Origin: Argopecten irradians
Lineage: Eukaryota; Mollusca; Bivalvia; Pectinida; Pectinidae
Reading direction: 5' to 3'
Assembly (NCBI RefSeq): GCF_041381155.1
Contig: NC_091134.1
Span: 39,329,338-39,393,337, forward strand
Length of the DNA stretch: 64,000 nt
Made by a program: the position numbers and the translations under genes. Below, one piece after another: positions 14,237 to 56,300 of the stretch (its first letter is position 1; each line of letters opens with the position of its first letter). The notes under the pieces were generated by a model. That model ran no database searches, was not told where the DNA came from, and saw only the letters and a list, made by a program, of their open reading frames with translations.

Positions 14237-17200
14237 TTACATGCCAGTGTTTTGACTTGCTTCCCAAATAGCAGAGTAGTTGAGGATGCCCTCGGACATG
14301 TAGCCACAAAGGAACTGAACAGGGACATTCGCACTCTGGTGCAGTTCATACAGAAACCCAAAACGGGACACATCATGACGTTGCTGACACAATGAAGGCT
14401 TCTCTGTAGTCAGTATCATACTAACACTGGGTAGATCTCCGTCCGAGTAAAACTTGACAAACTCCAGACTAAACATACCCAGAGATAACTTTTTACTTAG
14501 CTCGTACACAAAGTTCTCAGGTGTGATCTGTAGCCAGGATATTGTAGTACAGGGTCGACCACCATTGTGAAGGAAAACTGATGACACAAACACATCACCT
14601 TGTCTTACACTCACAGATTGAATTTTCAAATCATAATTTATCTTTTTCAAATCATCCAAACGTTTCAGATGAATTTTACCAGGTAAATGAAATGTTAAAA
14701 TTTGTTTCATTATAGTATTTTTCTTTTTTCGAATAAAAACATAATGAAACTTCTCATTAAAATAACACATATCTAGAACATCAACCCACAAATCTGTTTC
14801 GCATTCCTCAGGAAAATCCTTGTAAAGTTGAGGATCATCATCAGTATAAAAATTTACTTTCCAGGGAACTTTGTCTTTATTTTTCCTCCAAACAATGTTT
14901 AAATATAGTTGATGATGATAAATAAACATGTTGATAGCTGTGATCCAATTACCCTGATCAGTTAATTCCCTCATGAGTGGAATCCGATCCCTATATAATA
15001 CCAACACACAAATAATCTGAGCCTTATCTTTGGATTCAATTTTATAGAAGTTGTCTCCCCTTAGATCAGATAGGGAAGGCATCACTGGATTCCATAGTGG
15101 AAATCCTGGCACATGACTCAGTGCAAATTTGACAAGGCCATCCAGATCCATGTCTCTTGACCAAGAGTTGAAGAGAAGGACCCAGCTGAACCCAGATTTA
15201 TGGTGGAGAAATGTTGTTGATGTTCCGTCCATAGCTCCTGTGTGACCCCAACTACCACCCCCATCCTGAACATCCAGTCCAAGACCATACCACTCTTCTC
15301 CACTTTCATAACTAGGTCGCTGCAGCATTCTTTTGAAGGTCTCCTGTTTCAGTAAACTGACACTGGAACTGCTAAAGAAATAGATTTAAAACCAATAATC
15401 ATAAATTCAGATCTCTATGATATAGATCTCTTTTTCTACAAACAAAATTTGAACATTTGCTGGAACCACATATAAGTCCATGTGGAAATGATATAGAATA
15501 GTGTGGAGTCCATTTACAAACCTAAGACCTCATGACGACATAATGAGATCACATCATGAGGTCAGAAAAGTGACATTGCACAGTACTGATCATGAAACAA
15601 AATCAAGCATTTACATAAAATGGTGTGAAATAAGAATAAAAACATAGAGAACTTGTTTAGCAATGTTGGAGGCTATTCAACCACACTGAAGTGGGTGTAC
15701 ATACCTATCGTCAGACAGCCTGTCAAACAGATCAAGGAGATGTTTCGCTGAGGACACCCAGCCCCCATAGGACCCTGTATCCTTCATAGGGAAGGAGCCA
15801 TACTGTGGAGTCACCAGCCCCTCTCCAGGAATTATAGAAGGGGCCAGACTAGGTTCTCGGTTACTGTAATACTCCACCTGTATAAATAATAAACAATCAG
15901 TCAGGTTCAAACAACTAGTGATCTATCAACAATTACGAATGGAGAGGATCATATTTCATAGAGTCATGTTCTCAAATGAAATTTTTATGTTTCACAACAT
16001 TAATACTGTGGGATGAGACAGGAGATCTCAACCCTTGGGATAAGATTCTTAAGCTCTGTCAAACACGGGCTGAGATTCTCCTGTCTCACCCCAAACCAGG
16101 TGAAAGATTTTATAACCTAGTCTCACCATGTCGGGTGGAGGAAGATGTTATTATTCTACAAGCTCTGCTAGATATAGATTACCTCCTGAAAGTCCTCTAC
16201 AGATTTCTTTTCTGTACCAACATACATCACATCCCTGGTGGCATCTCCAAGACACTCATGTACAAGGTTCTCATAAACCATTCCTAGTTTCTTCTCTAAA
16301 GCCATCCCCAGCACCAGGTATCCCAGGTTAGAGTAAGCATGACGCTTACCTACAACATGTAGTCAGGCAATTGGTAACCAGGATTAGAGTAGGTAAAACG
16401 CTTAATTACATACATACACAATGCTGTGCATATATTTCATGATTGATGGTATACTGTTAGATGTTTATTTAGAAATGTTATATCACAGATGTGCCAGTAG
16501 TATTGGAGAATATCTTACAGCAATCTGGTCACATTGAAAAAGCCAAATGAATGTAAATATCTGAAAAATGTTATTTTAATTCAGCAATAATAGAAAGGAA
16601 TCATTTGGAAAAGATTGTTGATTGATCGTGTATATAACTAGAAAATATCTGTGAGACATCAAATTCACCTGCCAGATATCATAGAGGGAAAGCACTGGGG
16701 AGGACATAACAACAGTATCTAAATGTACATTGCACATCGAGAATTCTTTCATAGTAAGGGCACACATTTTGCATCAAATAATTCTTCTGACCTGGAAGGC
16801 AAACTCCTTAGCATCACAAACATCAATATTAATATCATATTGACCTGGTGAGAACTGAAGCTTTTTTGACATCATGTAAAACAGTAAAGTTTCCTTAGCT
16901 GTGGGTTCACGTCCCGGACAAACTTTCTCCAGATTCCAGAACACCGGATCTCCCACTGTGTCTCTATCCCAGCCAGCTGAGTGTTGGAGCAGGTGCTCAA
17001 TTGTGACCCTGGTCAGTCGACCGTCACCCTTACTGGACGGCTTATAACCTGTGATACCTGCATTTACAAACACAAAATATTTTAACTCAGACTTGTTCAA
17101 TGCAGTATACATGTACTGGATATATGCAAGCTAACTTTCTACATGTAGACTCCATTATGTAATATATTATATGGAATATGTAAAATCTACTTTCATACAT

Positions 17201-18488
17201 ATAATCTTAGGAATCAGTTACTTCCCTTTGTTCAGTATATCAAATATTCAATATTGGTTGTTGTTGCACAATGCATTTTACTGTAAAAAGTTAAAAACAA
17301 GAATGAACACCTTTTGTTCCAAAAACTGTGTCTGTCAAGGAGAGAAAACCACTTTCATACAGTTTCATTGTAACTATGGCTGTGATTGGTTTACTGATAC
17401 TAGCCAATCGGAATTTGGAATTGGACAAAACCACTTTCCCAGGTCCTGCTGTGCCATAGCCTGAAATGATGAGAGAGTTATAATTATAATAAAATATTTT
17501 ATGAATATTAATTTTATAGCTGAAGAACTCTAATTACAAAGACACACAATTTTGTATCATATAGATAAGGAGTAAGTAAAACGTTCTTGGATTTTTCATA
17601 GAATTCACAATTATTATCATTATTTCACAATGCATGTAAAAATATGAGACAATCAAAGTCTAGCTATTAAGAAGTATTAAACTATTTTCATTTTTAAAAA
17701 TGTACTGATTATGACATCATCTCTATACAGTATAATGTGACAGTGTAATGTGTAAATTATAAGGTTTTATAAATGCAGAAGCTAAGGAGGTCTGTAATAC
17801 ATCCACACACTTGTCACATGGCATTTATTGTTCCTACAGTCTGAATCCAGAATTTTACATAGATGGGTGTATTCATGTATTTATTATGATCATATTCAGC
17901 AAGGATAAACAAATATTCACCTTGTACATACACAGGACTGCCATGTAGACTAACTGCTAAGGAGGCTCCAGGGATACCATGTTCCTTCATAAAACTGGTG
18001 ATCACATTGTCAAATATTTCAAAATACGCAGGACTGTTTTCATTTGGAGAAATTTCTACAAAAGGTCAATGTCAATAATGAACTACCAGTGCTTCAAAAT
18101 AAATCATGACCATAATACTTGCTCATGAAAGAAAATTAAGTGTAGCAAGCCCATATAATTTGGAGACAGAAATACATGTACCGGTAGTCTTATTATAATT
18201 AAACAATATCAATCATAATTAAACAATAATAATGTTCTTGCATAATATTGGTTCAAAGTATGCTTGCACAATGTTTCATTTAAGAATCTAACATTTAATT
18301 ACATAGAGTTGTTTCAGATATCTTATATAACCTTTTTATTGTTCTTCATTCTTTTAAACCAAAAAATCAGCTTGTGAGTTATTTTTTTCTTATTATTTTT
18401 AAATGTTGCATCTTTCAAAAGTATTCTTGTCATCATACATACCCAGCTTGACACAGTAGTTATGATCTTCCACAGAAAGAGAGTTCAT
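14237..18488 (-). CDS. Serine beta-lactamase-like hydrolase (LACTB/peptidase S12 type) with C-terminal extension
   Basis: Exons in transcription order: 18488-18443, 18055-17921, 17460-17311, 17057-16845, 16349-16183, 15877-15705 and 15371-14237. They total 2019 bases, or 672 residues, with agreeing phases. All three active-site motifs of the serine beta-lactamase/S12 fold are present: S81-I-S-K84 (nucleophile Ser81, general base Lys84), Y187-S-N189, and H338-T-G340 in place of KTG. Other family marks are GIPGASLAV near residue 45, a LLQHSAGWD segment and FSPGKRHAYSNLGY. The fold covers about residues 25-390. Residues about 395-672 form an extra region with repeated patterns of G-Y or Y followed by a short hydrophobic strand ending in W or L, such as GYMSEGILNYSAIWE. 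This resembles the tandem repeats found beside some S12 hydrolases, by inference only. No signal peptide or mitochondrial targeting sequence is evident from the chosen start, MNSLSVEDH. The family contains peptidases, esterases and the mitochondrial filament protein LACTB; the substrate is unknown. An acceptor just upstream suggests a 5' UTR intron. Confidence 0.9.
15878..16182. repeat. Intron 5 of the beta-lactamase-like gene, mostly a hairpin repeat related to family D
   Basis: This 305-base intron contains an inverted repeat. The left arm at about 16009-16034 has gatgagacaggaga and tctcaaccc; the right arm at about 16067-16092 has the complement (gggctgaga, tctcctgtctcacc). Next to it are ggtgaaagatttta and a further tagtctcacc. 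The same words (acaggRatctcaaccc, gtgaaagatttt) occur in family D at 486-627 and 37570-37670. Confidence 0.45.
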
Positions 18489-21715: not shown

Positions 21716-24700
21716 ATGGAGTATCTCACATCATGGAACCAGGATGAGTCCCAGACACAAATTGGCAAGACCAAAAACCTTGAGATACAGGGGTCGGGTC
21801 ATGGTGATGTCATCCAAAAGTTCATCCCACACGCTCCTCACGCCCCGCCCAGCCGCCCAGCAAGTAGACCGCCATCCCGAGTCAAAAGTGCCAAAAAACG
21901 TATGGACATGTTCAGAGCTGCCGAGTAAGTCTTGTGTGATATATACAGTTCATCGATCAAATTTCAAAACAAAGCACATGTCATTTATGATGATAATTAT
22001 GTTATTGCATGCGATTAAATTTTGCATAATTCATTGGCTAACACAAATCACCAAATTAATTGCTGAAAATATATTCTGAGCATGCCACAGGTACAGTAGA
22101 ACACATAATGATTGTAAATAGTGAAGTTTAGTTGCGATGAAATATTATCATTGAAAATATAGAAACACAAAATTAATATACTCGTCACCATTTAATTGTG
22201 AGGTGAAGACCTACCAGGTGCCTAAGGCAGCTAATTAAACCGCTTTGATGATTTGTCGATCAGTACACGGTTTTCATTAGGTACCATAAAATTTGTTTTC
22301 CTAAACACCAAAACCTTATACCAGGTACATCTTTAATAACTTTATAGCTAAAGGATTAAGTTAATGATCGTCATGCTGTTTTTCCCTAAGGGATCCTGAC
22401 AGTGAAGACATTGAAGCCATCCTTACCCGGATGGAGCAGGTTAACCAGGCCCCACGGGATCTACAGATGTATACGGGGTGTGAATGTGTCACTCAGCCAC
22501 AGAAACCCAAACAACCTGACATCAAGCACTCACCTGAACCTACTGTGGAGAGTTACGGAGATGATTCAGACTCAGATAATGAAGGTAACATTGAGAACAA
22601 TGATATTTAATATATTATTTACAACAAATACTACAAGGATGTACATGTACTGTATTATATTGAATGATTGATTTCTTTTAACAGAAGTTTTTTTATCCAT
22701 TTCATATCACTTGGTAGATATTACCTTTGGAAGCTAAAATTATCTGGGAATTTTATCTTTAATTTGGTATGCTGTACATTTTATACGAATTTGGAAGTAT
22801 GTCTGATATTGTGACATATAGATATGGTATTATACACATTTTGTTTATCTACCCGGTTTGTAGATGAGGTAGAACTTCCCACCCTCCTTGGAATGCTACA
22901 GAAGCTGAGTGATGCGCCCCTTAAGAGAACCTCCAACAAGGCCTTCCTCACTTTGGTGTCCAGTCTGGACTCCAAGTCGGAGGTTGACACAAAACAAGTG
23001 GAACAGGTTAGGGTTTCTATCGCTATACCTACAGGATGAGCTGTCAAGGATAACCATTGTTTAACATATTTGTGTGTACAGTCAAACCTATAAACTATTC
23101 CATCTTTGCATAATACAGAGTAAGCTCCCTCGCGGATAGGTATCAATTGTTACGTCATTATTTTGTGAGCGCAATTAACGTTTTTTGTCCGAAGTTATAT
23201 ATGACGTTACACTCACAAACACATGACGTCACAATCAATACCTAGCCGCGGTGGCCGAGTGGTTAAGATGTCCCGACATATTACCACAAGCCCTCCACCT
23301 CTGGGATGCGGGTTCGAATCCCATGTGGGGCAGTTGCCAGGTACTGACCGCTGGTCGGTGGTTTTTCTCCGGGTACTCCGGCTTTCCTCCACCAACAAAC
23401 CTGGCACGTCCTTACATGACCCTGGCTGTTAATAGGACGTAAAAATAAACAAACCAAAACCTAGCCGCAAGTGCAGATAACTCTGTAATATGCAAATTCG
23501 CAATATAACTCTATAAAGATCACTCGAAGGTCGAAGAATAAAATGTCTTAATACACAGGTATACAGAGGTGGTCAGTAAGGCATAATTGAATGTACTTTA
23601 TATATGATGTAATGTTAGGATATTACATTACAATCACACTTGAAAGTTATATACGGTAAAATCTGCCTCAGAGATATGACCACTGTATAAAGATCTGCTG
23701 ACACAATATGATCTGAGTATGAAGACAACTTGACTGTAAAGACCATTTTTCTTTGGCTCTTGGGTGGTCTTAAAAGACAGGTTTGGCTGCGTATAGACAT
23801 ATAACCTAAATTAGACAAGCAATACATTATAAAAGTTGTTTGAACCATTGTCAATCTAAGCACTGTATAAAAGAAAGTCTATCTGTACTGTTTTAGATCC
23901 TTGCCTTCCTAGCTGATGAAGTGATAGTGGAAGTCCAGGAGCTGGCCCTTGGACTTGTTAAACAGTTGTGTTTCCACAAGGGTAACACCGCCAAGTTCAT
24001 GGTGGCTGACATCCTCAACAAAGTAGAGAAGATCTTGTTGTCCATGCGACCCCTCCAACCATATGTAGCTGCTGTAGGAGTTTTGGAAGCGGTATGTTTA
24101 TCTACTGTACCTTGTACTCGAAACATAAATCTACAGTTATCTATTTTTAACTATTTTTTGTCTGTCATTTTATATACAATGCCATTTAAGCACTTGATCA
24201 ATGTACTGGTACATCAAAGAAGCATTGTCTGGGTTAATAACTTTCTTCTTATTGTAAACCACTATATCATGTGAGATAATTTTCTTAATAATTTTATAAT
24301 TTTATGAGAACTCAAATACAAATTTACCGTTAGTTGTTCTGTGAATAATTGTATGTCAGTTAGAGACCTTGTTTGCATTTATATATTCACAAATATGTTA
24401 GGAGCAAGGATGACACAAAATACGGCATGTAAAGTGATTTACAGTACAACCTTGAGGAAAGCTCTATATTATTTACTTTTTTTATATCATAGATTGCCAG
24501 TCATGAAGAGTACCTCGCAGTTTGGCTGGAGCCAGTGATGCGTGTGTTTCCTGGACTGATGCGACACCTACAGATTGAGGAGACGGTTGAAGCCAAGTAC
24601 GCCATCTGTTGTCTGTTCCGTCGCCTCGCCCAGTACCCACAACTCTCGTGGAATATCCAGAATGAGGCTATACCCGTCATTGATGTGACCAGAGGAAACA

Positions 24701-30700: not shown

Positions 30701-33700
30701 TTCCTTTATCAGGCCACACTCGGCAGTAAACAGGAAGGATATGGAAAAGAAACTAAACGTCGCCCTCCACCAGATGTCACCAGACTTTGCTGTGATCATT
30801 AAGGAGGCGATAGGTCCTCGGCCTGGGTCAGCGCACCCGGCCTTCAGCGTGTCATCAGGATCGGGCGACACTGACGAGACGATGACGGTCAGCTCCACCT
30901 CGGGAGACGGTATTGATGACCCGGAGACTGCAGCCCGATTGGCTGAGTGTAAGATTATGATTTTTTAAACCTCTTTTCATGACCTAACTAAATTAATTAG
31001 TGAAGTGAGTTCCCCCTCTTTGTCTTCTGTTATGAATCTAAGTACCATATTTACCCTTTATTCAAAGGATCATAATTATGTTCTGTCTACCGAAAGGTAG
31101 TTTTGTAATTCAAAGATTATTGATACATTTGTTTGGCAAATTGATGTTGAAATTTTATCCTAGAATATTCTTCAAGAATCAAAAAGGAGCTAAAAAGGAC
31201 ATATGTAAAATGTATTTTAATATTCATATAAAAACAGGAATATTATTGGATTAGGAATTATTTTGCTCAGTCTTTAAAATATCAGTTGATGATGTATTAT
31301 ATACATTATTGTATAAATATTAAAGGCAATGCATTCATTTAACTCACAATTAAGTTTTTTGACAGTTGTAGAACAGAGTAAGAAAACCGAGAAGATAAAG
31401 AAGTCAGTGGACTTTGGTATACCAGTTACTGGTCTGACCCTTGACCCGCGACAGCCTATGGCTCAGCAGTGTCGCCAGCTGCTGGTCAAGGAGGCTGGAC
31501 ACAGGGTCATTTCAGGGGTGTTCACGGCTCCTAAGGCAAACAGGCGACATCTCATCTCTCTCATCTACGATGTTGTACACTTTGGAGATGTAAGTATAAC
31601 ATCGCTGTACATTTAGATGTACCTGGGTTTATTTAAGATTACTTTTGGAGAAACAAAATCATTTTATGCCAATTATTTTAGACTGTCTTGCTCTTCATCA
31701 AAATACGAAGAACCCCAATATACAACCACATTATGAGTCAACAAATTAGTAACACATACTATATTTACCATTGGAATAAAAGTTGACTATGTAAAACTTT
31801 GAGTCCATGTGTAGTAGCTACATTGCATATAGTTATAGTCATGCAAAATAACAAGCATAGATAATCCCTCAATTTTAGTGCTGATATTCATATCTGAAAA
31901 CAGATGTGTTTATCTCAGATATGATGCTGCTTTGAAAACAAAATTATTAACTTTACAGCATGAACTTCACATGAAGCTTGCAGAGTTTGGCTGTATGCAG
32001 AAATTACTGGATTTCATTAGAGTCAACACTGAGAGTGAGCTTCTGGAGATAATTGGTATGTATTACTAAAGAGAGTGAACTTGAACTTCTAGAGATTATT
32101 GTTATGTATTCCTAGAGATAGTGAACTTCTGGAGATTATTGGTATGTGTTACGAAAGAGAGTGAACTTGAACTTCTAGAGATTATTGTTATGCATTCCTA
32201 GCGATAGTGAAATTCTAGAGATTACTGGAAGGTAATCCTAGCGATAGTGAACTTCTAGAGATTACTGGAAGGTAATTCTAGAGATAGTGAACTTCTAGAG
32301 ATTATTGTTATATATTCCTAGCGATAGAACTTAAGCGATAGTGAACTTCTAGAGATTACTGGAAGGTAATCCTAGCGATAGTGAACTTCTAGAGATTACT
32401 GGAAGGTAATTCTAGAGATAGTGAACTTCTAGAGATTATTGTTAGGGCTGTTCCAGCAAAACATATATGGCACCCAGGGAAGGCACTTTAAAAACTAGTA
32501 TTTGCCATGGTGGGTTCAAAATAAAATCACCTCTGTGCCAGAGTGGCTTTTCAATAAAATCACTTCTTTGGGTGGGTCTATCTGAAGCAATTTTTGAAAT
32601 GAAATGCAAAATTTGTGTTTTATAATGTTGTTGTCAGTCACCCTGACTACAAAATTAACAGTTGAGAATAATTTTAATTTCTGTCAATAATGTGTTGTTT
32701 ATCTTCAATAAAAAACAATCATTTTATTTCATGGGTGTTTTGATATACACGTAATGACAGAATATTTATTTAAAATATTAATATACATTCAAACTTATCA
32801 ATGGTACAGAGAAACAATGGATTAGTTTTGGAAAAATACTGTTGTCATCAACAGATCATTATTTAAATTCACTGGTATTAAGTCGAGGAGATAGTGGCAG
32901 TTCACAAGCTAAAGTGTGAATGTCTAGATGTCTACACTTGCATTACGTTTGTGAAATACTTCTGTATCTTTAGTAGAATTCCGCTGGTTCTGCGAGGATT
33001 GTATCTTTATACAAATTTAGAATAGATGCAGCATATCAAACAATAGTTCACTGCACCACATACTGTGCAATTTTGTCCCGGGACTCTTCAGTGATACTAG
33101 AAATCAAAATATGTAAATCCAAAAAGATGTTGGAGCAAAATAAAAAATTAAATCGCTTCTATACCATAATCTTGTTCACAAAAAAATAGATATGTGTGAG
33201 GGTCAACAAAATTGAAAATCGCTTCTATCGGTGACTCTACAAATTTCAAAGTGCCTTCCCCCCCTACCATATATGTTTTGCTGGAACAGCCCTTATGTAT
33301 TCCTAGCGATAGTGAACTTCTAGAGATTACTGAAAGGTAATCCTAGAGATAGTGAACTTCTAGAGATTATTGGTATGCATTTCTAGAGAGTTAACTTCTG
33401 GAGAATATTGGTATATATTCCTAGAGAGAGTGAACTGCTGGATGTAATTGGTAGGTTATCCTAGAGATTCTGGAGATTATTCTGTCTTTGCATATTAAAA
33501 AGTTAGCTCCATTGCGGGTAGTTATCGATTGTTATGTCATTACTTGGTGAGCGCAATTCACATCGTTTTCTCCTAAAAGTATGACATTATGCTTGTAAAC
33601 ACATGACGTTACAATCAATACCTACCCACAAGGGCAGATAACTCTGTAATATACAAATACGGAATGGGTTTGTAATCCTGAATACAGTGAACTTCAGTGA

Positions 33701-36700
33701 GATTGCATGTATATAGATATCATTCTAGAATAGAGTTAACTTGGAAAATTTTTATTACACCATAGTATTCTCACTACCAGCAGAAGATTAAGACAGTGTA
33801 ATTATTTTGTGTGACTGTAAAGCTATGTGTTTTTGTTTCAAGGGTTAATTATCATCCAGATGTTGATAAAGAGTGACCCCCGCCTTCGGCAGATATTTGA
33901 ACGCCATGGTGGCACGAGGCTGATGATGACCATGATGTCCAAGTACAACAGTGGACCATTGAGGGACGAAATTAAAAACACCATGAGGACAGTGTCCAGT
34001 ACTGGTCAGTATATAGATCATGATAGGTCATTCTAGGTCAATAGAGGTTGTATGTGGTATCTTTCAACATCATTGGAGGAGGGGCAGTATTTGTTCATTG
34101 TTCAACAGACATCACTATCATTAATCACCTAGTATTTCAGTTCTTTGGGTATTTTTGATATACATATTGCCCATGTAGATATAATTTTAAAATAGATAAA
34201 ATAGATAATAGATAATTTGCATTCCCAAAGTGATTCACTTCTACATTAAACTTCAGGGTGTTATTGATATATTACCACTACAGCCTTCCAACTTTGAGTT
34301 TCAAGTTTTCAAATTTTACTGTGGACAGTTGCAATAGTAAAGGTAATAATATACAATAGGTGTTTTTTCTCCAGGTACTGCGATTTTCCTCTGGCATATC
34401 CTAAATGACCCTGGCTGATAATAAGATGTAAAACAAAAACAAACAAACATTTCAATTTCATCCTAGTTTTCTTCACTGGCATTTTGTCTCATGAAATTCG
34501 CCTTTTAACAGGTATCACCGCACAGCCGTCTCGGCCCAAGCCTGTGGATAAGGGGAGACAACCCACAGATGTGTGGGACCAGGTAAGATTTGTTTAAATA
34601 AAGTGATGTATTATCTCATTTGGAGATCAGGACAGTGTTAAAATTACAACTTTTATCTGTTAATTTTTCAATCTTATCATTTTTATGTAATGGTTTAATA
34701 ATTATAAGTTAATGGTTCTTAAAGATTAAGTGCTGTCAATCTTTCATACTGAAAATGGACAGGATATTGGCATGTCAATAACATATTTGAAAATTGATTT
34801 GTATTTCTAATATTCCTGACATTATGATACTTAAACAGTATGGGTACTTCTAGTATGTATAAGCCCAGTATATGCACGATTATAAAATTTTGTCAGATTC
34901 AACTGAGGTGGAAAGATGAAGATAAAGTCAAAACAGTACTACGCAACTGGAGGAGTGATGGAAAGAAATAAAGATGGAGAGACCGGAGAAGTGATGGAAA
35001 GGGATGAAGATGGAGGGACTGCAGAAGTGATAAAAAGAGATAAAGATAAGAGAAACAGAAGAAGGGATGGAAGAGATGAAAACGGAAAAACTTTAGGTAG
35101 CAACATGGAGTATTTTTATTTTTTTCGCTGAAAGTTTATTCTAGACTTTTTGATAATATCCGTCCATACATGGTTTTTTTGTGGTTCTGTAGTAAACTGT
35201 AGAGAACTTGTCAGTGTTTCTCACTATTGATATTGTTTGACTTTGATAGAAAAAAAAGCAATATTTTGCAATATATGTAGTTCAGTTTGATAATAGCTTT
35301 TTATGATATTATGTAATAAATGCACCTTTTAAATCAAAATTATACAATAGTAATGAACAATAGTATTGAACATTCTATTTAATTTGTATATCACTTATTA
35401 ACACCTATTAATTTATTTGTAACATTTCACTTAAGCTAATTTATTATCATTTTTATTTATTTCATACCAATTCAGAAACATTTGTCATATGATTTGATTA
35501 ATTTATTGTATTCCTTTGCTTAAAACTGATGTTGCCAAATCCTTTTCTCAAACAATGATAATAAGGATTATTGTATTTTAATCAGATTGCCTTTGGTTAT
35601 ACCTTGTTCTATATATTCACAGGCAATTTTCATGGTAAAGAATATTTGATTACCAAATTTTAACACCTGTATCTTCATTTATTCATCTTTTCATTTTGTC
35701 TCGATCAGTTTGAATCTACTTTACATTGTTTTTGATGTATTGCATTTAAGTTAACAACAGACTTTTTGCTAATGTATATGTATAATAATTGTTTTTATTA
35801 GCTTAAAAACATTGTACTTAGTATTTGATTTTTTACATGGTAGAAGTTTTGGTATAAAATAAAGCAAACCATTTTGATGTTTCATACACCTGTGAGTTTC
35901 AATTTAAAATGCTTGGATTTGTGCAACCGTGATATAATGTTGTTAGAGTAATTTATTAAGTTTTCAATTTAAAATGATAGATTTGTGCTAAGATAATGTT
36001 GTTAGAGTAATTTAGTGAGTTTGAATTATCTTTATGTGTGAAAATTTTCATTACATCAATTCATGTACTTTAGAAAAAAATCACCCTAATAGATATTGAG
36101 TTTTGATTAAAAAGAAAAAAAGCATTTTCAAAACTCTGACAATTTATTCATGATCTTGTATTATTTCAAAGTACCGATACCCTATTTGAGAATCTCAATT
36201 TTAATGCAATATTGTTTAAAAGGAGCATTTTCTATTGTTTTTGATGGTAATTATATATATTCTGACATCCTGTGGTCCAAGCCATGCAGTCTGATTTTGT
36301 GCCAATAATGTAATGGTGTAATTTTAAGGTATGAATTTTTTATTTGCTTATTTGGATATCCTACCTCTAGTCAGATAACACCTTGATATTAACATCTGCT
36401 AGTTCTTGCCAACTTCAATTGCAATTAATTATCTTTAATATTTTATCTTGAAGTAAAATTAGAAATTCAAACTTTTCAATGGTGGTAATCGGGTAAAGTA
36501 AGTAACTTTTATAACTGAAGAAAAATACAAATTTGTCTGCTCTTGTTTTTTATTGAAAAAAACCCTATTTGTTAGCAATTGAGCATCTTTAAGTTTTCAT
36601 AAAGCATATGATTGGAGACATACATTATGATAATTCTTGTTTGATGATTATATAAAGAAAATTAATGGTGTTGAAATTGCACCTTTTTAGAGGTGGGTGA

Positions 36701-41622: not shown

Positions 41623-41967
41623 TCAAATCGGTTAGAATACCATTTTTTTTAGCAAGAGACTTCTGGGATAAGCAGGATGCACTTTTTAATGATCTCTGTT
41701 CAAATATTTTTGCTTCAAAGAAAAAAACCCACGCAACTATCGATATGGAGCCAGACTAACTGTTTTAAAATGTCTGATAGAAGAAGTGCTGCATACTTGT
41801 AATTCTAAGCGACAGTGTTGAGAAACTACGCGAGTTTTTTTTGTGTTCTAGAGAATGTTTTGTTGAAGTGCTTTTGCTGATACTTGAACATGAAGGTGAT
41901 GTTGCGAAAAAAAACAGCCAACTACACATGGAATGATATAATCATAGGCACACGCATTTTTGTTCTT

Positions 41968-42184
41968 TTATGGGGCCGCGGTGGCCGAGTGGTTAAGATG
42001 TCCCGACATATTACCACAAGCCCTCCACCTCTGGGATGCGGGTTCGAATCCCATGTGGGGCAGTTGCCAGGTACTGACCGCTGGCCGGTGGTTTTTCTCC
42101 GGGTACTCCGGCTTTCCTCCACCAACAAACCTGGCACGTCCTTACATGACCCTGGCTGTTAATAGGACGTAAAACTAAACAAAC
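41968..42184 (+). mobile_element. tRNA-derived V-SINE (RUDI-like), young copy
   Basis: Full-length copy with intact A box (GGCCGAGTGG), B box (GGTTCGAATCC), V-domain words and an aaactaaacaaacc tail. It is flanked by a probable duplication of about 12 bases (cattttTGTTCT-like before, cattttgttcta after). It differs from the copy at 23245 at about two positions by eye, so both moved recently. Confidence 0.88.
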
Positions 42185-42888
42185 CATTTTGTTCTAATAA
42201 TGATTTTATTATAGATATCTTGGTAATATTCTCTGAAGGCAGTATATTTCCAATACATGTGATAAGATTATTATTTTAGTTTGCAAATGCCCGTGATCTA
42301 ATATACGATTTTTAAATACACATGGATATACAAATGTACATGTCAGATGTATATATATTGTGCAGTCCAAACCTGAAGGTCTAAAGTGAAGCAAAAGGCG
42401 ATTTCATTCTGACAAAAATCAGACATGTGTTCCCCAAAAGTCCTCGTGAAAAGTGTATTGATTGTGTAGGTATTATGTCGAATTAATTTCTGCTGAAGAA
42501 CTACTCCAGGTTTCCTACATTTATTCCAATGTCTGGCTTATCCCAAGGAACGGCCTTTAGCCCACTTTTTTCACTACAAAACCACCCAACATTACAATTA
42601 CAATCCATTCTGTTTCGATGATTGTCAATCTTTATTTGAATGCCATCACTGGATATTTCTTTGATCACATTTTTATCGTGGTAATTGATAAAGATGTGAA
42701 GCTTGTTATAATATTTTTACGGATCTCAATTTGCTCCAGAACGACGCTATCGGCAATAGAGTGAATTATTTTTTGACTAATCCACCGAAACACTTTATGG
42801 ACCTATGACACTTGTTATTTGTAAAATGAAGAATTGCACTGGATTGTATTTCATTTACGAGTTGACATAATTTGTTTTCGGTTTACAG

Positions 42889-47310: not shown

Positions 47311-48302
47311 ATGAAAATTCTTATTGACTCTCTTACGTCGGAAGTATGCATCATGATTACCAGATAGTAGACGAGTGATTTTTTAATCGTTTCCAGATCA
47401 CAGATGAATGAATCGGACCCATTGGGCAAGCCTTGTTAATTTTTATGGACCTTTGTTTATAGATTAAGTTATCCATAGGTGCCATATGTTAGATGAATAG
47501 AAAGGATAGTTTCTTTCTTGGACATAAAGACATTGGTGTATTGCTACACTGGCATGTCTCAAAGCTTTTTCCCAAAGAGAATGTCCTGTTATCAGGCAAG
47601 CCAGAGAACTGAGGAGTCACCGGTTTCAGTATTACTAAAGAGGATCCCTCGCTAGTAATTACCTCCCTACTCTTGTCTAAGACAAAAGGGTGGTTATGGC
47701 TGACAAAGTCTGCAGATTGTTATAATTATATTGATACTCAACGTTTCGAAAAAACTATTCTGTAAAGAAAAAAGTGCTTGGAATGATGGTATGGTGTGGA
47801 ACGACCTTGAGATTTGATGCTTTTATTATGAGTCCTATGCTATCACTGAGTAAGTAAGTTATCTTAGTAAGTAGTAAGAAGTGCTATTACATGCTTATTG
47901 CACAAGATTGGGTTCTAAGGTCTGTAGCTTAACTTGTTAGTTTCTGAAAATTCCTCCATAATTCATTCAAAAACTGATTAGCTTACTGGTAAATTGGAGT
48001 GTGATAAAAAAGATTTTAAGAACTTTTATTGAATGAACAGCTTATAAGTTCAAGGTAATTGCATAGAGTAATAAAAAATGTTACCTTGGCAACTCACATA
48101 GTATAAAAACTCAAACATAAAACTTGTCTAGATCTGTTTGAGAGTACATGGAAATATTATACTTGAATCAAATATTTCTTTTGTAAGAGTTATTTCCCTT
48201 ATGTTAACTAGTTCTTGTGTCCAGCTTTCCAGTTTGGATGCCTCCCTGGTGAACAGATTGTAATGGTTACAGCTCCTATGCCACCTACTCAAATTTGTTT
48301 AT
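47311..48302. other. Intergenic, no feature recognised
   Basis: I see neither a convincing exon nor a repeat with a partner in this window. Confidence 0.3.
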
Positions 48303-48527
48303 ACTACACTGGGCCTTGGTGGCCTAGTGGTGAAGATGTCTCCACATATTACCAAAAGAACTCCACTTCTGGGTAACAAGTTCGAATCCCATGTGGGGCA
48401 GTTGCCAGGTACTGACTGATGGTTGGTTGTTTTTATCCGGGTACTCGGGCTTTCCGCTACCAACAAACCTGGCAGGTCCTTACATAACCCTGGCTGTTAA
48501 TGTGGCATTTAACTAATAAAACCCATT
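48303..48527 (+). mobile_element. V-SINE copy, diverged
   Basis: The head gggccttggtggcctagtgg, the B box agttcgaatcccatgtgggg and the body tttttatccgggtactcggg follow the young SINE order, with many substitutions. Confidence 0.8.
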
Positions 48528-48716: not shown

Positions 48717-49086
48717 CAATTTTTGCGATGTCACCCCGCTCACTTAAGATTTAGTGCGATATATTTAGATATCATAGTTGATGACATCAAAGCAGCTCAC
48801 TAAATCAATTTTTAGATGCTTTAATTCTTTGTCAATTTTAGCATAATTATACATACCACCCTGATTACATTTTATAGTAAACATATTTCCAGTTCAATGT
48901 TATGGGCTATGAAGCAGTCAGGTGAATAACAATTTCATTTTAGGATCTTTGAGTCTTGGGCCAGATGTATCCATGAAATGGGGATGGATGTAGATTGTAG
49001 ATGGGTAATTGGGGTTTAGGGGTACTGGAGATGGAACAATGTGTTTGGTGTTATGTTAATTCTGTGTGAACTTGATGTTTCTTAGT

Positions 49087-49292
49087 GGGGGCCACAGTGG
49101 CCGAGTATTACCACAATAGAGCCCTCCACTTCTGGATAACAAGTTTGAATCCCATGTGGGGCAGTTGCCAGGTACTGACCGCTGGTGGGTGGTTTTTCTC
49201 CAGATACTCCGGCTTTCCTCCACCAACAAACCTGGGACGTCTTTACATGACCTTGGCTGTTAAAAGGACATTAAACTAATAATAAAAAAATA
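49087..49292 (+). mobile_element. V-SINE copy with deletion in the tRNA head
   Basis: Reads gggccacagtggccgagt directly into attaccac, losing about 20 bases after the A box. The B box is changed to gtttgaatccc. The V domain and tail are well kept (ctccagatactccggctttc, ttaaactaataataaa). Confidence 0.8.
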
Positions 49293-50011: not shown

Positions 50012-50233
50012 ATTTTGAAGTTGACAATACTTTTAACAGAGTACATTTCTGGTCTGTTCAGCTCACATTTTCAGGTTGACCATACTTTTAACAGAGTACA
50101 TTTCTGGTCTGTTCAGCTCCATTTTGAAGTTGACCATAATTTTAACAGAGTACATTTCTGGTCTGTTCAGCTCACATTTTAAAGTTGACCATACTTTCAA
50201 CAGAATACATTTCTGGTCTGTTCAGCTCACATT
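50012..50233. repeat. Tandem repeat, 55-base unit, four copies
   Basis: Unit words are gaagttgaccatactttta, acagagtacatttctggtct and gttcagctcacatttt. Four successive units differ at only a few positions each. Confidence 0.88.
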
Positions 50234-50887
50234 TCTATAGCATGTGTCAAACATTTGGTCAGCATTTGCTTCGTTAGAAAAATAGAATATCTTTACAACT
50301 GTTAACACTTAAATTACGATCATTTTTGATGAAAGTGCCTACCTTTTTCCTAGCTGGTGTCGAGGTCATCCCCAACCCTCCTGGGGTGGGTCCAACCTCC
50401 GCCCAGCGGTGGTCGTTATCCCTTATTATACCTGTAACGAGTTGTGTCACTACCATCACAATAATTATTACTGAAAATGTAACTCAGATGGTTTGGTATC
50501 ACTTCCTCATTCCTAAACAGTAAAAGCAAAAAATGACACGGAAATATAATTACTTTCTACTGTAGACATTGTTTTTCCATGGGGGTTCAATTTGGGAATT
50601 AGGATAGGTGAACTTTGAGTACATACAGATGGTTTTCTTTATTTGATATTATAGCAGTGTCTTTATAGAACCATATGTGATGGTGTGATCAAAATTCCTG
50701 TGGCAGAAATTGAACATTCCAATATTTCTGGAATATTCTGGGATAGTTTTCAGATTGAGTGTTACAACCTTTTGAGTTTGATATTATTTTTACATATAAA
50801 GCTTGTAGACCCCATGGAACAAAACATATATAGGACCCCAATTAAGACTTTTCATAAATTTATTTGTTACTTTAAAATTCTTCTGGT

Positions 50888-52979: not shown

Positions 52980-54070
52980 GTAGTTAGCATGAGATCAAAG
53001 AGATGCAAACATAGCAAGAGACAAAAACAGATGCAGCCATGTGCAAGAGATCAAAAAGAGATGATGTAGACATGAGCAAGTGACCAAGGGAGATATAGGC
53101 CCAAGCAAGTGACCAAGGGAGATATAGGCCTAAGCAAGCGACCAAGGGAGAGGTAGGCATGAGCAAGAGAGCAGCAAGATATTAAGCCATTATAAAGAGC
53201 AAGTGACAAAGGGAGATATAGACATGAGCAAGGGACTAAAAGAGATTACACCATATGAGCAAGGGACAAAGGGAAATGTAGGTATGAGCAAGAGAACAAG
53301 ACGAGATGTAGGCATGAGCAAAAGAGCCAGGGAGATGCAGCCATGAGCAAGAGATGAAAGGTAGATGTAGACATGAGCAAGAGATCAAATGGAAGATGTA
53401 GACATGAGCAAGAGATCAATTGGAGATGAAGGCATGAGCAAAAGATCAAATGGAGATGCAGACATGAGCAAAAGATCAAATGGAGATGCAGACATGAGCA
53501 AAAGATCAAATGGAGATGCAGACATGAGCAAGAGATCAAATGTAGATGCAGACATGAGCAAAAGATCAAATGGAGATGCAGACATGAGCAAGAGATGAAA
53601 GGTAGATGTAGACATGAGCAAGAGATCAAATGGAGATGCAGACATGAGCAAAAGATCAAATGGAGATGCAGACATGAGCAAAAGATCAAATGGAGATGCA
53701 GACATGAGCAAAAGATCAAATGGAGATGCAGACATGAGCAAAAGATCAAATGGAGATGAAGGCATGAGCAAAAGATCAAATGGAGATGCAGACACGAGCA
53801 AGAGATCAAATAGAGATGAAGGCATGAGCAAAAGATCAAATGGAGATGCAGACATGAGCAAGAGATCAAATGGAGATGTGGGTATGAGGAAGTGATCAAA
53901 TGGAGTTGTAGGTATGAGAAAGAGATTAAATGGAGATGTAGGTATGAGCAAGAGATGTAGGCGTGAGCAAAAGAGCAAGGGAGATGCAGCCATGAGCAAG
54001 AAATCAAAGGTAGATGTAGATATGAGCAACAGTCCACAGCATATATGTAGGTGTAAGCTAGAGACCAAAA
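52980..54070. repeat. Minisatellite with a 30-base period
   Basis: The core unit is gcagacatgagcaaaagatc followed by aaatggagat, repeated about 17 times without gaps at 53389-53890. More diverged units on both sides (agcaagtgaccaagggagat, gagcaagagatcaaatgg) extend it to about 1.1 kb. The period is a multiple of three, so long open frames appear on both strands. On the plus strand a frame repeats MSKRSNGDAD. On the minus strand frames of 280 and 227 codons overlap. These are more likely a by-product of the period than genes: there are no splice or start signals and no non-repeat coding sequence around. Confidence 0.9.
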
Positions 54071-56300
54071 AGATATAGCAATGATCACACCTGTTTTAAA
54101 GTTTTATGATTATTGTGATAAATATGGGGAAATGGCAACAAGCAGGGAGGAAAGATCTTCTAACTAAACAGGGATATCAGGGATGGAGCTGGAGTTTAAT
54201 GACTGTTGTTTGATTAGAGTCAATTGATCATACATTAGTACATTAATTCACTAAGACCATAAGTGACTGCTCTGAGAAAAAGGCATGGTGACCTGAGGTT
54301 TTGAGATAATTGTTTGTACCTCAAGAAAGGGCAGTGAGCACAGCTTTCGTATCAATGAGTTGAGCAATGCTTTGAGATCACTAGATATATTAATTAGAAT
54401 AGAAGCTGTTAGAATGCATTAGGATCATTGGTTGTACTTAGATAAAGATTTTGGGATTATTAGTTCTAATAGTGAAAGGGTAATGAGTCTTTATACTAAA
54501 CTATCACTGAAGGTAGAGGATGAATAAACAAGACTTTAAAACATTGATTGTACTAAGAGAAACATCATGATTGTACTTAAAGAGAAAGGACTATGAAGAA
54601 AGCATTGAAATCATTGGTACAGGGCTGCAGTAAGAGCCAGTCTAATGGAAGAAGTGTTTGTAAACATGCCAAGTGAATTAACTTGATTTTGTTGCTACTC
54701 TATGCTATGAGGGTAAACATATTTGTCTGATGTTGAAGATTTGTATTGACTTAAGCTTGTAGACTTTAGCAATGTAAAATACAGTTTACAAACTAGGGCC
54801 AACAAAGAAGCCACTTAGGGATTACGACCTTGGACAAGGTCATCAATTTTCATTCACACATTTTACTCATTGACATATATCGATAGTTAACAGATTTCTC
54901 CATATGTTATACATTAAGAGGTCTAGGTGTTTGATCTGATCAACAACTATGTGAATTATCTACCAAGACACAGAGCCAATAGAAATAAAGCACACTAGAT
55001 CTATGTCCTTGATTTTACAGGTTTTCCCAGTTCATGTTTGAAGATGAACACAAAATACATGGTTGGATCTGAAATGAGGATAATCATCAAGTGTCTTAAG
55101 AGAGAAGAAGGGCAGAAGAGCGATAATGACATTTGTCTTGGCAGAAAAGTAGGACCAGAGAATGACAATGATCACATGTGTCTATGAAGGTAAGTAGGTC
55201 AGAATAGAAATTATCACAAATGTTCGTAGGAGAAAATTAGAAGGTAACATAGTTTATTTTTCTTTGAAGGACTAACAAGAAGAAACAAACATTGATGATC
55301 CTGATTATCTTACCTTGGTGCCTATATATAGCAAGAGACATGATCAAATTACTCTAAAGCTTTTTCAAGGTAATGTAAATGTGTTCTTAAAGACTATATT
55401 GGGTTGAGATGTGTCCATTCCATGTATCCGAGATGAATTAGGGAAATTAGGAGAAATGAAGGAACAAAGTTGGTTTACTTTCTTTTAATTAATGCACACA
55501 GGGATGGATGCGCACAAACTTTGGAAGGAATGTGGAAATTCAATTGATGTTTTTGAAGTAATGAAATTGGATGGGGTGTATATTTTTACAGCGGTGTAAT
55601 TGGTGGGGGAGGGGGTACTTTTCTTTTCCTGTAGAAATTTGATGACAAGATGCCATAGCTTTTGTCTTTGAAGAGATATACATGTACATGTTAGCAAATG
55701 ACCATTGTCATTAGAACATTTATGAAGGCATAATAGTAGTAAGCAGATCCAGTTCGATCAATTTTTTTTTATATAAATGACTTAATGATTTCACGGCCAG
55801 CTGTTGGTGATATGGTGAAGATGAGCCTATATCATCATCTCTATCCATCTTGATACATCTGAACACCAGGTAATGATAAACAAGTATGGTAGATCAAATA
55901 CATTTAATTGAATGTGAGACAGTTCATATTACAGTTTGTCCATCAGAGCTAGTACTGATGTTAAAAATGAATAACAGTATCCATCTAAGGAACAAAGAAA
56001 AAGAAACCTAAAAGCATCAAATGATTATACATAAAAATTGTTTTCAATAAAAATAGTAATTAAATGTCCATTTCCTTTATGAATAATTCAATGGAAAGTG
56101 TCTTCTATTGTAGAAGGTTGACCAGTATAGGTAAGACATTCTTCTGTACTCAGGTCTAGATGTGGTGGTGCCTGGCCTGACTGTAAATGAACTGGACACA
56201 TTTTCATGATTCCAGACGGGTCATTTTCAGAACATGTATTGAGGTCTAGGACAGGACCTCACTGACAATAACGTTACGTGGTTTTGTCATAATAGACTGG
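54071..56300. other. Intergenic, no feature recognised
   Basis: A+T-rich sequence with agaaagga/gaagaa purine runs near 55080-55280. No supported exon and no repeat with a partner in the window. Confidence 0.35.

Follow-up and report, generated by a model that had tools for sequence, protein, structure and literature searches.

An intron of Argopecten irradians opens with a tandem repeat whose first copy seems to lie astride the end of the preceding exon, which raises the question of whether the array arose from that exon end and its splice donor, and what its repeated donors would mean for splicing and for the protein. We addressed this within a window of 64,000 nucleotides, which is the whole stretch of DNA analysed here.

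A minisatellite that crosses a predicted exon end

The original prediction placed a minisatellite at 32014..33440. The tandem array is real, although 848 of those 1,427 bases belong to a transposon. Homology confirms that the array starts within the predicted exon and continues across the donor; Tandem Repeats Finder reports it as the spans 32034-32444 and 33297-33468, and the array DNA proper comprises 32034-32444 together with 33293 to about 33482. The features concerned are as follows, a slash marking the splice position.

31959..32055, plus strand: predicted exon (number 15 in the original prediction), ending ...SELLEII-G, in an open frame at 31839-32066, with the acceptor TTTACAG/C and phase-consistent junctions
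32056..32061, plus strand: donor taken as true, TTG/GTATGT, phase 1
32035..32040, plus strand: alternative in-frame donor within the exon, AGA/GTGAGC
32034..32078, plus strand: u1, with the last 22 exon bases, the donor and the first intron bases
32079..32444, plus strand: the intronic units u2 to u9, followed by the beginning of u10 (starts: u2 32079, u3 32120, u4 32165, u5 32206, u6 32246, u7 32286, u8 32340, u9 32380, u10 32420)
32445..33292, strand not assigned: 848-bp transposable element within u10
33293..33482, plus strand: remainder of u10, u11-u14 and the decayed u15 (starts: u11 33311, u12 33351, u13 33389, u14 33429, u15 33463)
33843..34004, plus strand: next predicted exon, following TTTCAAG, joined in phase 1 with an exon end at 32055 and also with one at 32034

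Smith-Waterman alignment of 31900-32075 with the remaining array gave a score of 65 over 32031-32075, whereas 100 first-order resamplings averaged 20 and reached 30 at most, and we rejected chance similarity of the exon end to the array on these grounds. An outside genomic source of the repeat was likewise rejected, because a genome search with 31950-32443 (with a tool that passes over simple repeats and words of very high frequency) matched this locus alone. An accidental likeness, or an origin of the repeat at another genomic site, is thus vanishingly improbable.

Unit calls based on a 22-base core gave 14 clear units, u1-u14; 13 of these (u2-u14) are intronic, and they are followed by the decayed u15, all arranged head-to-tail. 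This count omits the Smith-Waterman rows at 33686 and 33734 (weak) and 31960 (false), and u15 itself, at a score of 22, does not reach the 27 that was the highest null score. Intronic units measure 34-54 bp, mostly 38-45 bp, a minisatellite-sized period. The array homology covers the last 22-25 exon bases (32031/32034 to 32055) and about 20 intron bases; the first unit does straddle the predicted donor as proposed, with about 22 exon bases and not the 40 or so coding bases originally assigned to it.

Higher-order copies are also present. Units u3-u4 repeat the 86-bp block formed by u1-u2, with 6/86 differences. Inside 32200-32444 Tandem Repeats Finder detected a period of 134 bp (99% matches), the register of which is broken by a 14-base excess in u7; extended ungapped over the transposon, this period shows 14/134 differences. 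The most divergent units are u14 and the u1/u3 pair. Among 22 approximate exon segments in the window, only the array's own exon had a second match at E ≤0.01, and Rfam gave no match anywhere in the window. The ends of exons in other genes were surveyed as well, with 142 kinase matches and no loci as the outcome.

Minisatellites are dense in this 846-Mb genome: in a 200-kb sample drawn from 20 places (L021-L040; G+C 0.36), 39 arrays (score at least 150) made up 38.8 kb. The pattern at this intron looks like ordinary minisatellite turnover in an array-rich genome.

The window holds other repeats. At 53197-53956 a minisatellite with 25 copies of a 30-bp unit shows strong GC and AT skew, and its minus strand carries an open frame of 285 codons (53249-54103). 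A 55-bp tandem repeat occupies 50012-50234 (4.1 copies, 92% matches). Near-identical translations at 23205-23460, 41948-42193, 48302-48513 and 49059-49276 mark what is apparently one dispersed repeat.

A transposable element splits the array after its formation

The 848-bp element within u10 is flanked by a TTA target duplication and has terminal inverted repeats, 20 of 20 terminal bases matching. It is dispersed: at 82-98% identity there are at least 40 further long matches (40 of 199 candidates were scored). Among eight loci examined, both ends were found in six, this one included, and equal TTA or TAA flanks were present in five of these six, the exception (L004) having unequal flanks. Given this TWA duplication and the inverted ends, and by the TWA target-site rule of that group, we assign 32445-33292 to a non-autonomous PIF/Harbinger-like element. 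Copies at 97-98% identity suggest recent movement. Because the element splits u10, the array predates the insertion.

The position of the true exon end

The descent of the array from an exon end depends on where that exon ends, and two donors compete. On a generic metazoan donor matrix, the donor after 32055 scores 1.22 and the one after 32034 scores 2.17; the order is reversed for predicted pairing with U1, at -7.2 and -4.6 kcal/mol, respectively. The U1 5' end used here was found exactly where expected in five of six U1 loci (it is absent in L017). By the same matrix the 32055 donor falls below eight of nine other donors scored in the gene, and it is mid-range by U1 energy, these nine being ranked alternatives of a partial gene model and not always the top-ranked ones. 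A tandem cluster of U1 snRNA genes, with a spacing of about 1.18 kb, lies on contig C7 (7837784-7877915).

Were 32034 the true exon end, u1 would be intronic, the minisatellite would start at the first bases of the intron, and the GT at 32056 would act as an in-frame decoy that lengthens the protein by seven residues. Beyond its matrix score, this position took first rank at the junction in both rankings; it leaves an in-frame, open junction seven residues shorter, and the array begins no more than three bases away. Its weaker U1 pairing counts against it, as does the nature of the three positions at which u1 departs from the array consensus: all are third-position and synonymous, as in coding DNA. 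The consensus comparison drew on 12 of the 14 units (u2 and u4 omitted), and three random changes were all third-position synonymous in 0.8% of trials, a post hoc figure that assumes the consensus to be ancestral. SELLEII is still encoded in 4 of the 11 intronic units compared. The helix spacing of armadillo repeats also fits the longer junction better, although this is a general pattern and not a test.

A comparison in Pfam did not separate the two junctions. With the longer junction Pfam returned V-ATPase_H_C at E 0.027 and 0.22, and with the shorter one XPC-binding at E 0.069 and 0.026; every Pfam match for the gene was below cut-off. A query of roughly joined exons had no PDB match at E ≤1, and a paralogue search found nothing past one match of E 0.68. 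Elsewhere in the window, exon-like frames lie on the minus strand at 14240-18065, and within them 16777-17130 resembles Pfam Beta-lactamase (E 7.8e-05, below the curated cut-off), so that these frames may possibly represent a serine beta-lactamase-like gene.

On the balance of this evidence the exon more likely ends at 32055 than at 32034, a preference that falls short of proof, and the shorter exon is an unlikely rival reading. Given an exon end at 32055, homology and the single genomic match support the proposal that the array was born from an exon end and its donor.

Decoy donors would lead to a premature stop

Decoy donors at the start of the intron, as originally predicted, are present by both matrix and U1 scores. 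The original prediction also held that several units keep GGTATG or GGTAAT at the donor position; this stands for GGTATG, which occupies that position in 2 of the 13 intronic units (u3 and u12), whereas GGTAAT (as AAG/GTAAT), found in five (u5, u6, u8, u9 and u11), sits four bases downstream. A GT persists in the original register in four units (u3, u12, u13 and u14), u13 having GGTATA and u14 GGTAGG, and the remaining four (u2, u4, u7 and u10) have neither donor form. The nine donor bases of u3 are identical to those of the 32055 donor and lie 86 bases downstream of it.

Within the 579 bp of intronic array, seven sites equal or exceed the 32055 donor on the generic matrix, where the rest of the window would lead one to expect 2.0; at least seven such sites were present in 16 of 1,228 stretches of equal size elsewhere. 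Since the decoy sites are mutual copies, duplication accounts for this excess, which gives no indication of selection. By U1 pairing, two of the seven reach the -7.2 kcal/mol of the 32055 donor (u3 at -7.2 and u14 at -8.8 kcal/mol), and the five shifted donors stand at -6.6 kcal/mol each.

The reading frame beyond the exon decides what use of a decoy would do to the protein.

32067..32069, plus strand: in-frame TAA, reached by any transcript that continues beyond the 32055 donor

We translated eight decoys (the seven sites and 33372; positions 32141, 32231, 32271, 32365, 32405, 33336, 33372 and 33450), and all eight terminate at this TAA with an identical protein end, so the repeat is untranslatable from this frame. 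Extension of the protein by short repeats, one of two outcomes originally envisaged for decoy use, is therefore refuted, and the other, a broken frame, survives solely as a premature stop. The decoy junctions are at least 72 bases downstream of this TAA, and a premature stop at such a distance before a junction is expected to cause decay of the transcript.

These properties could be read as a length-tunable poison switch, in which regulated use of decoys would produce premature stops and gene output would fall with copy number. In favour of such a switch are the seven array sites whose matrix score equals or exceeds that of the true donor, the nine donor bases shared by u3 and the stronger U1 pairing of u14, and human IFI6 offers a precedent for repeat units that serve as donors (PMC4526556). 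However, the excess is what copying of decoys from one another would produce, U1 pairing matches the true donor in only two of the seven sites, and five of the decoys lie inside hairpins. The GT has been lost from both places in four of the 13 units, with no upkeep visible, and comparable arrays in lancelets are reported to leave splicing undisturbed (PMC3087553, PMC3902484). We consider a regulated switch quite improbable; the array is most likely largely neutral, its first donor being the one that would normally be used.

A unit type that forms hairpins

Relative to the Tandem Repeats Finder consensus, the five shifted-donor units carry four changes in a stretch of 11 bases, and together these changes complete an inverted repeat. 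As 27-base RNAs, the shifted-donor form folds at -10.3 kcal/mol and the consensus (type-A) form, which corresponds to no single actual unit, at -4.4 kcal/mol; 79 of 20,000 random four-change variants folded equally well. At the DNA level, fold z-scores were -2.8 and -3.1 for two shifted-donor units, compared with 0.3 for u2 and 0.5 for u1. For 32034-32444 as a whole, folding gave no support to a global RNA structure (z -0.75; 23 of 100 shuffles folded equally well).

The shifted decoy donor is located in the 3' arm of the hairpin. Of its 15 mean unpaired probabilities, one for each combination of unit and flank, 11 lay at 0.23-0.27 and the other four at 0.44-0.58; the corresponding values were 0.39-0.77 at the 32055 donor and 0.54-0.60 at u3. 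Hairpin-guided copying is a plausible cause of the shifted-donor units. A broader reading joins these observations: the 11-pair hairpins, each with a new, consensus-like decoy donor in its 3' arm, would spread their units by template-directed turnover and would be tolerated by hiding the decoys from U1, leaving a length-variable, structure-gated source of transcripts targeted for decay. We regard this combination as doubtful.

Proposed origin and working of the array

We favour, with a probability of about 0.74, the interpretation that this is a 'mirage' minisatellite, produced by duplication of an exon end with its donor, in which splicing would normally take the first donor and the intronic copies drift. 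Tandem duplication of some 40 bp that took in both the exon end and the splice donor would have founded the array, and unequal exchange or slippage may then have produced the 86-bp and 134-bp higher-order copies before a PIF/Harbinger-like element split it. Selection on the protein would keep the exon copy while the intronic copies drift. With the first donor in normal use, the array would be removed together with the intron, and rare use of a decoy would introduce a premature stop into the transcript, which nonsense-mediated decay would probably remove.

Relation to known boundary duplications

Arrays of this uncommon kind have been described before, as lancelet mirages and as the donor minisatellite of IFI6. 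Lancelet mirages, reported from the Adh3 and globin genes, are tandem duplications of exon-intron boundaries that resemble minisatellites, with AG/GT signals in many, though not all, copies and with no disturbance of regular splicing observed (PMC3087553); troponin C and PGBD5 provide further examples (PMC3902484), and such boundary duplications have been proposed as an origin of new introns (PMC3087553). The array described here shares with them, given an exon end at 32055, boundary-spanning units, as well as partial retention of splice signals, a homogenised centre and diverged ends; the 10-72 bp units of the Adh3 mirage include the unit size found here, and the mirage of BflGb9 likewise duplicates the 3' end of an exon. 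Its units are head-to-tail with a minisatellite period, and splice signals occur in many but not all copies (4 of 13 in register, 5 of 13 shifted and 4 of 13 with neither). A genuine boundary is one of the copies if the exon ends at 32055, and is not if it ends at 32034. Unlike the lancelet mirages, this array is split by a transposon and has five units with a shifted donor in a hairpin; length variation and splicing have been shown for lancelet mirages, whereas this array is known from the sequence of one assembly. We do not present it as the first case outside lancelets, the literature covered being that under open licence.

The IFI6 repeat has a unit of 12 bases, compared with about 40 here. 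Both repeats lie 3' of an exon and have units that provide donors, but every translated decoy here meets a stop first, so that none of the eight gives a longer protein. In human IFI6, two downstream repeat units are reported to act as donors and alter the protein (PMC4526556), and two other reports also cite this donor minisatellite (PMC3618361, PMC2572611). A study of human segmental duplications describes internal tandem repeats that change gene structure, some at exon-intron boundaries (PMC2812944); these resemble the present array in being minisatellites, with units of about 30 bp, and in including boundary cases. They concern recent paralogues with transcript support, whereas no paralogue was found here beyond the match of E 0.68.

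Because the kind is already known, the value of this locus is that of one more well-dissected case. It would be a natural test case for the spliceosome's choice among near-identical neighbouring donors, with the same nine donor bases repeated 86 bases downstream and followed by more consensus-like sites.
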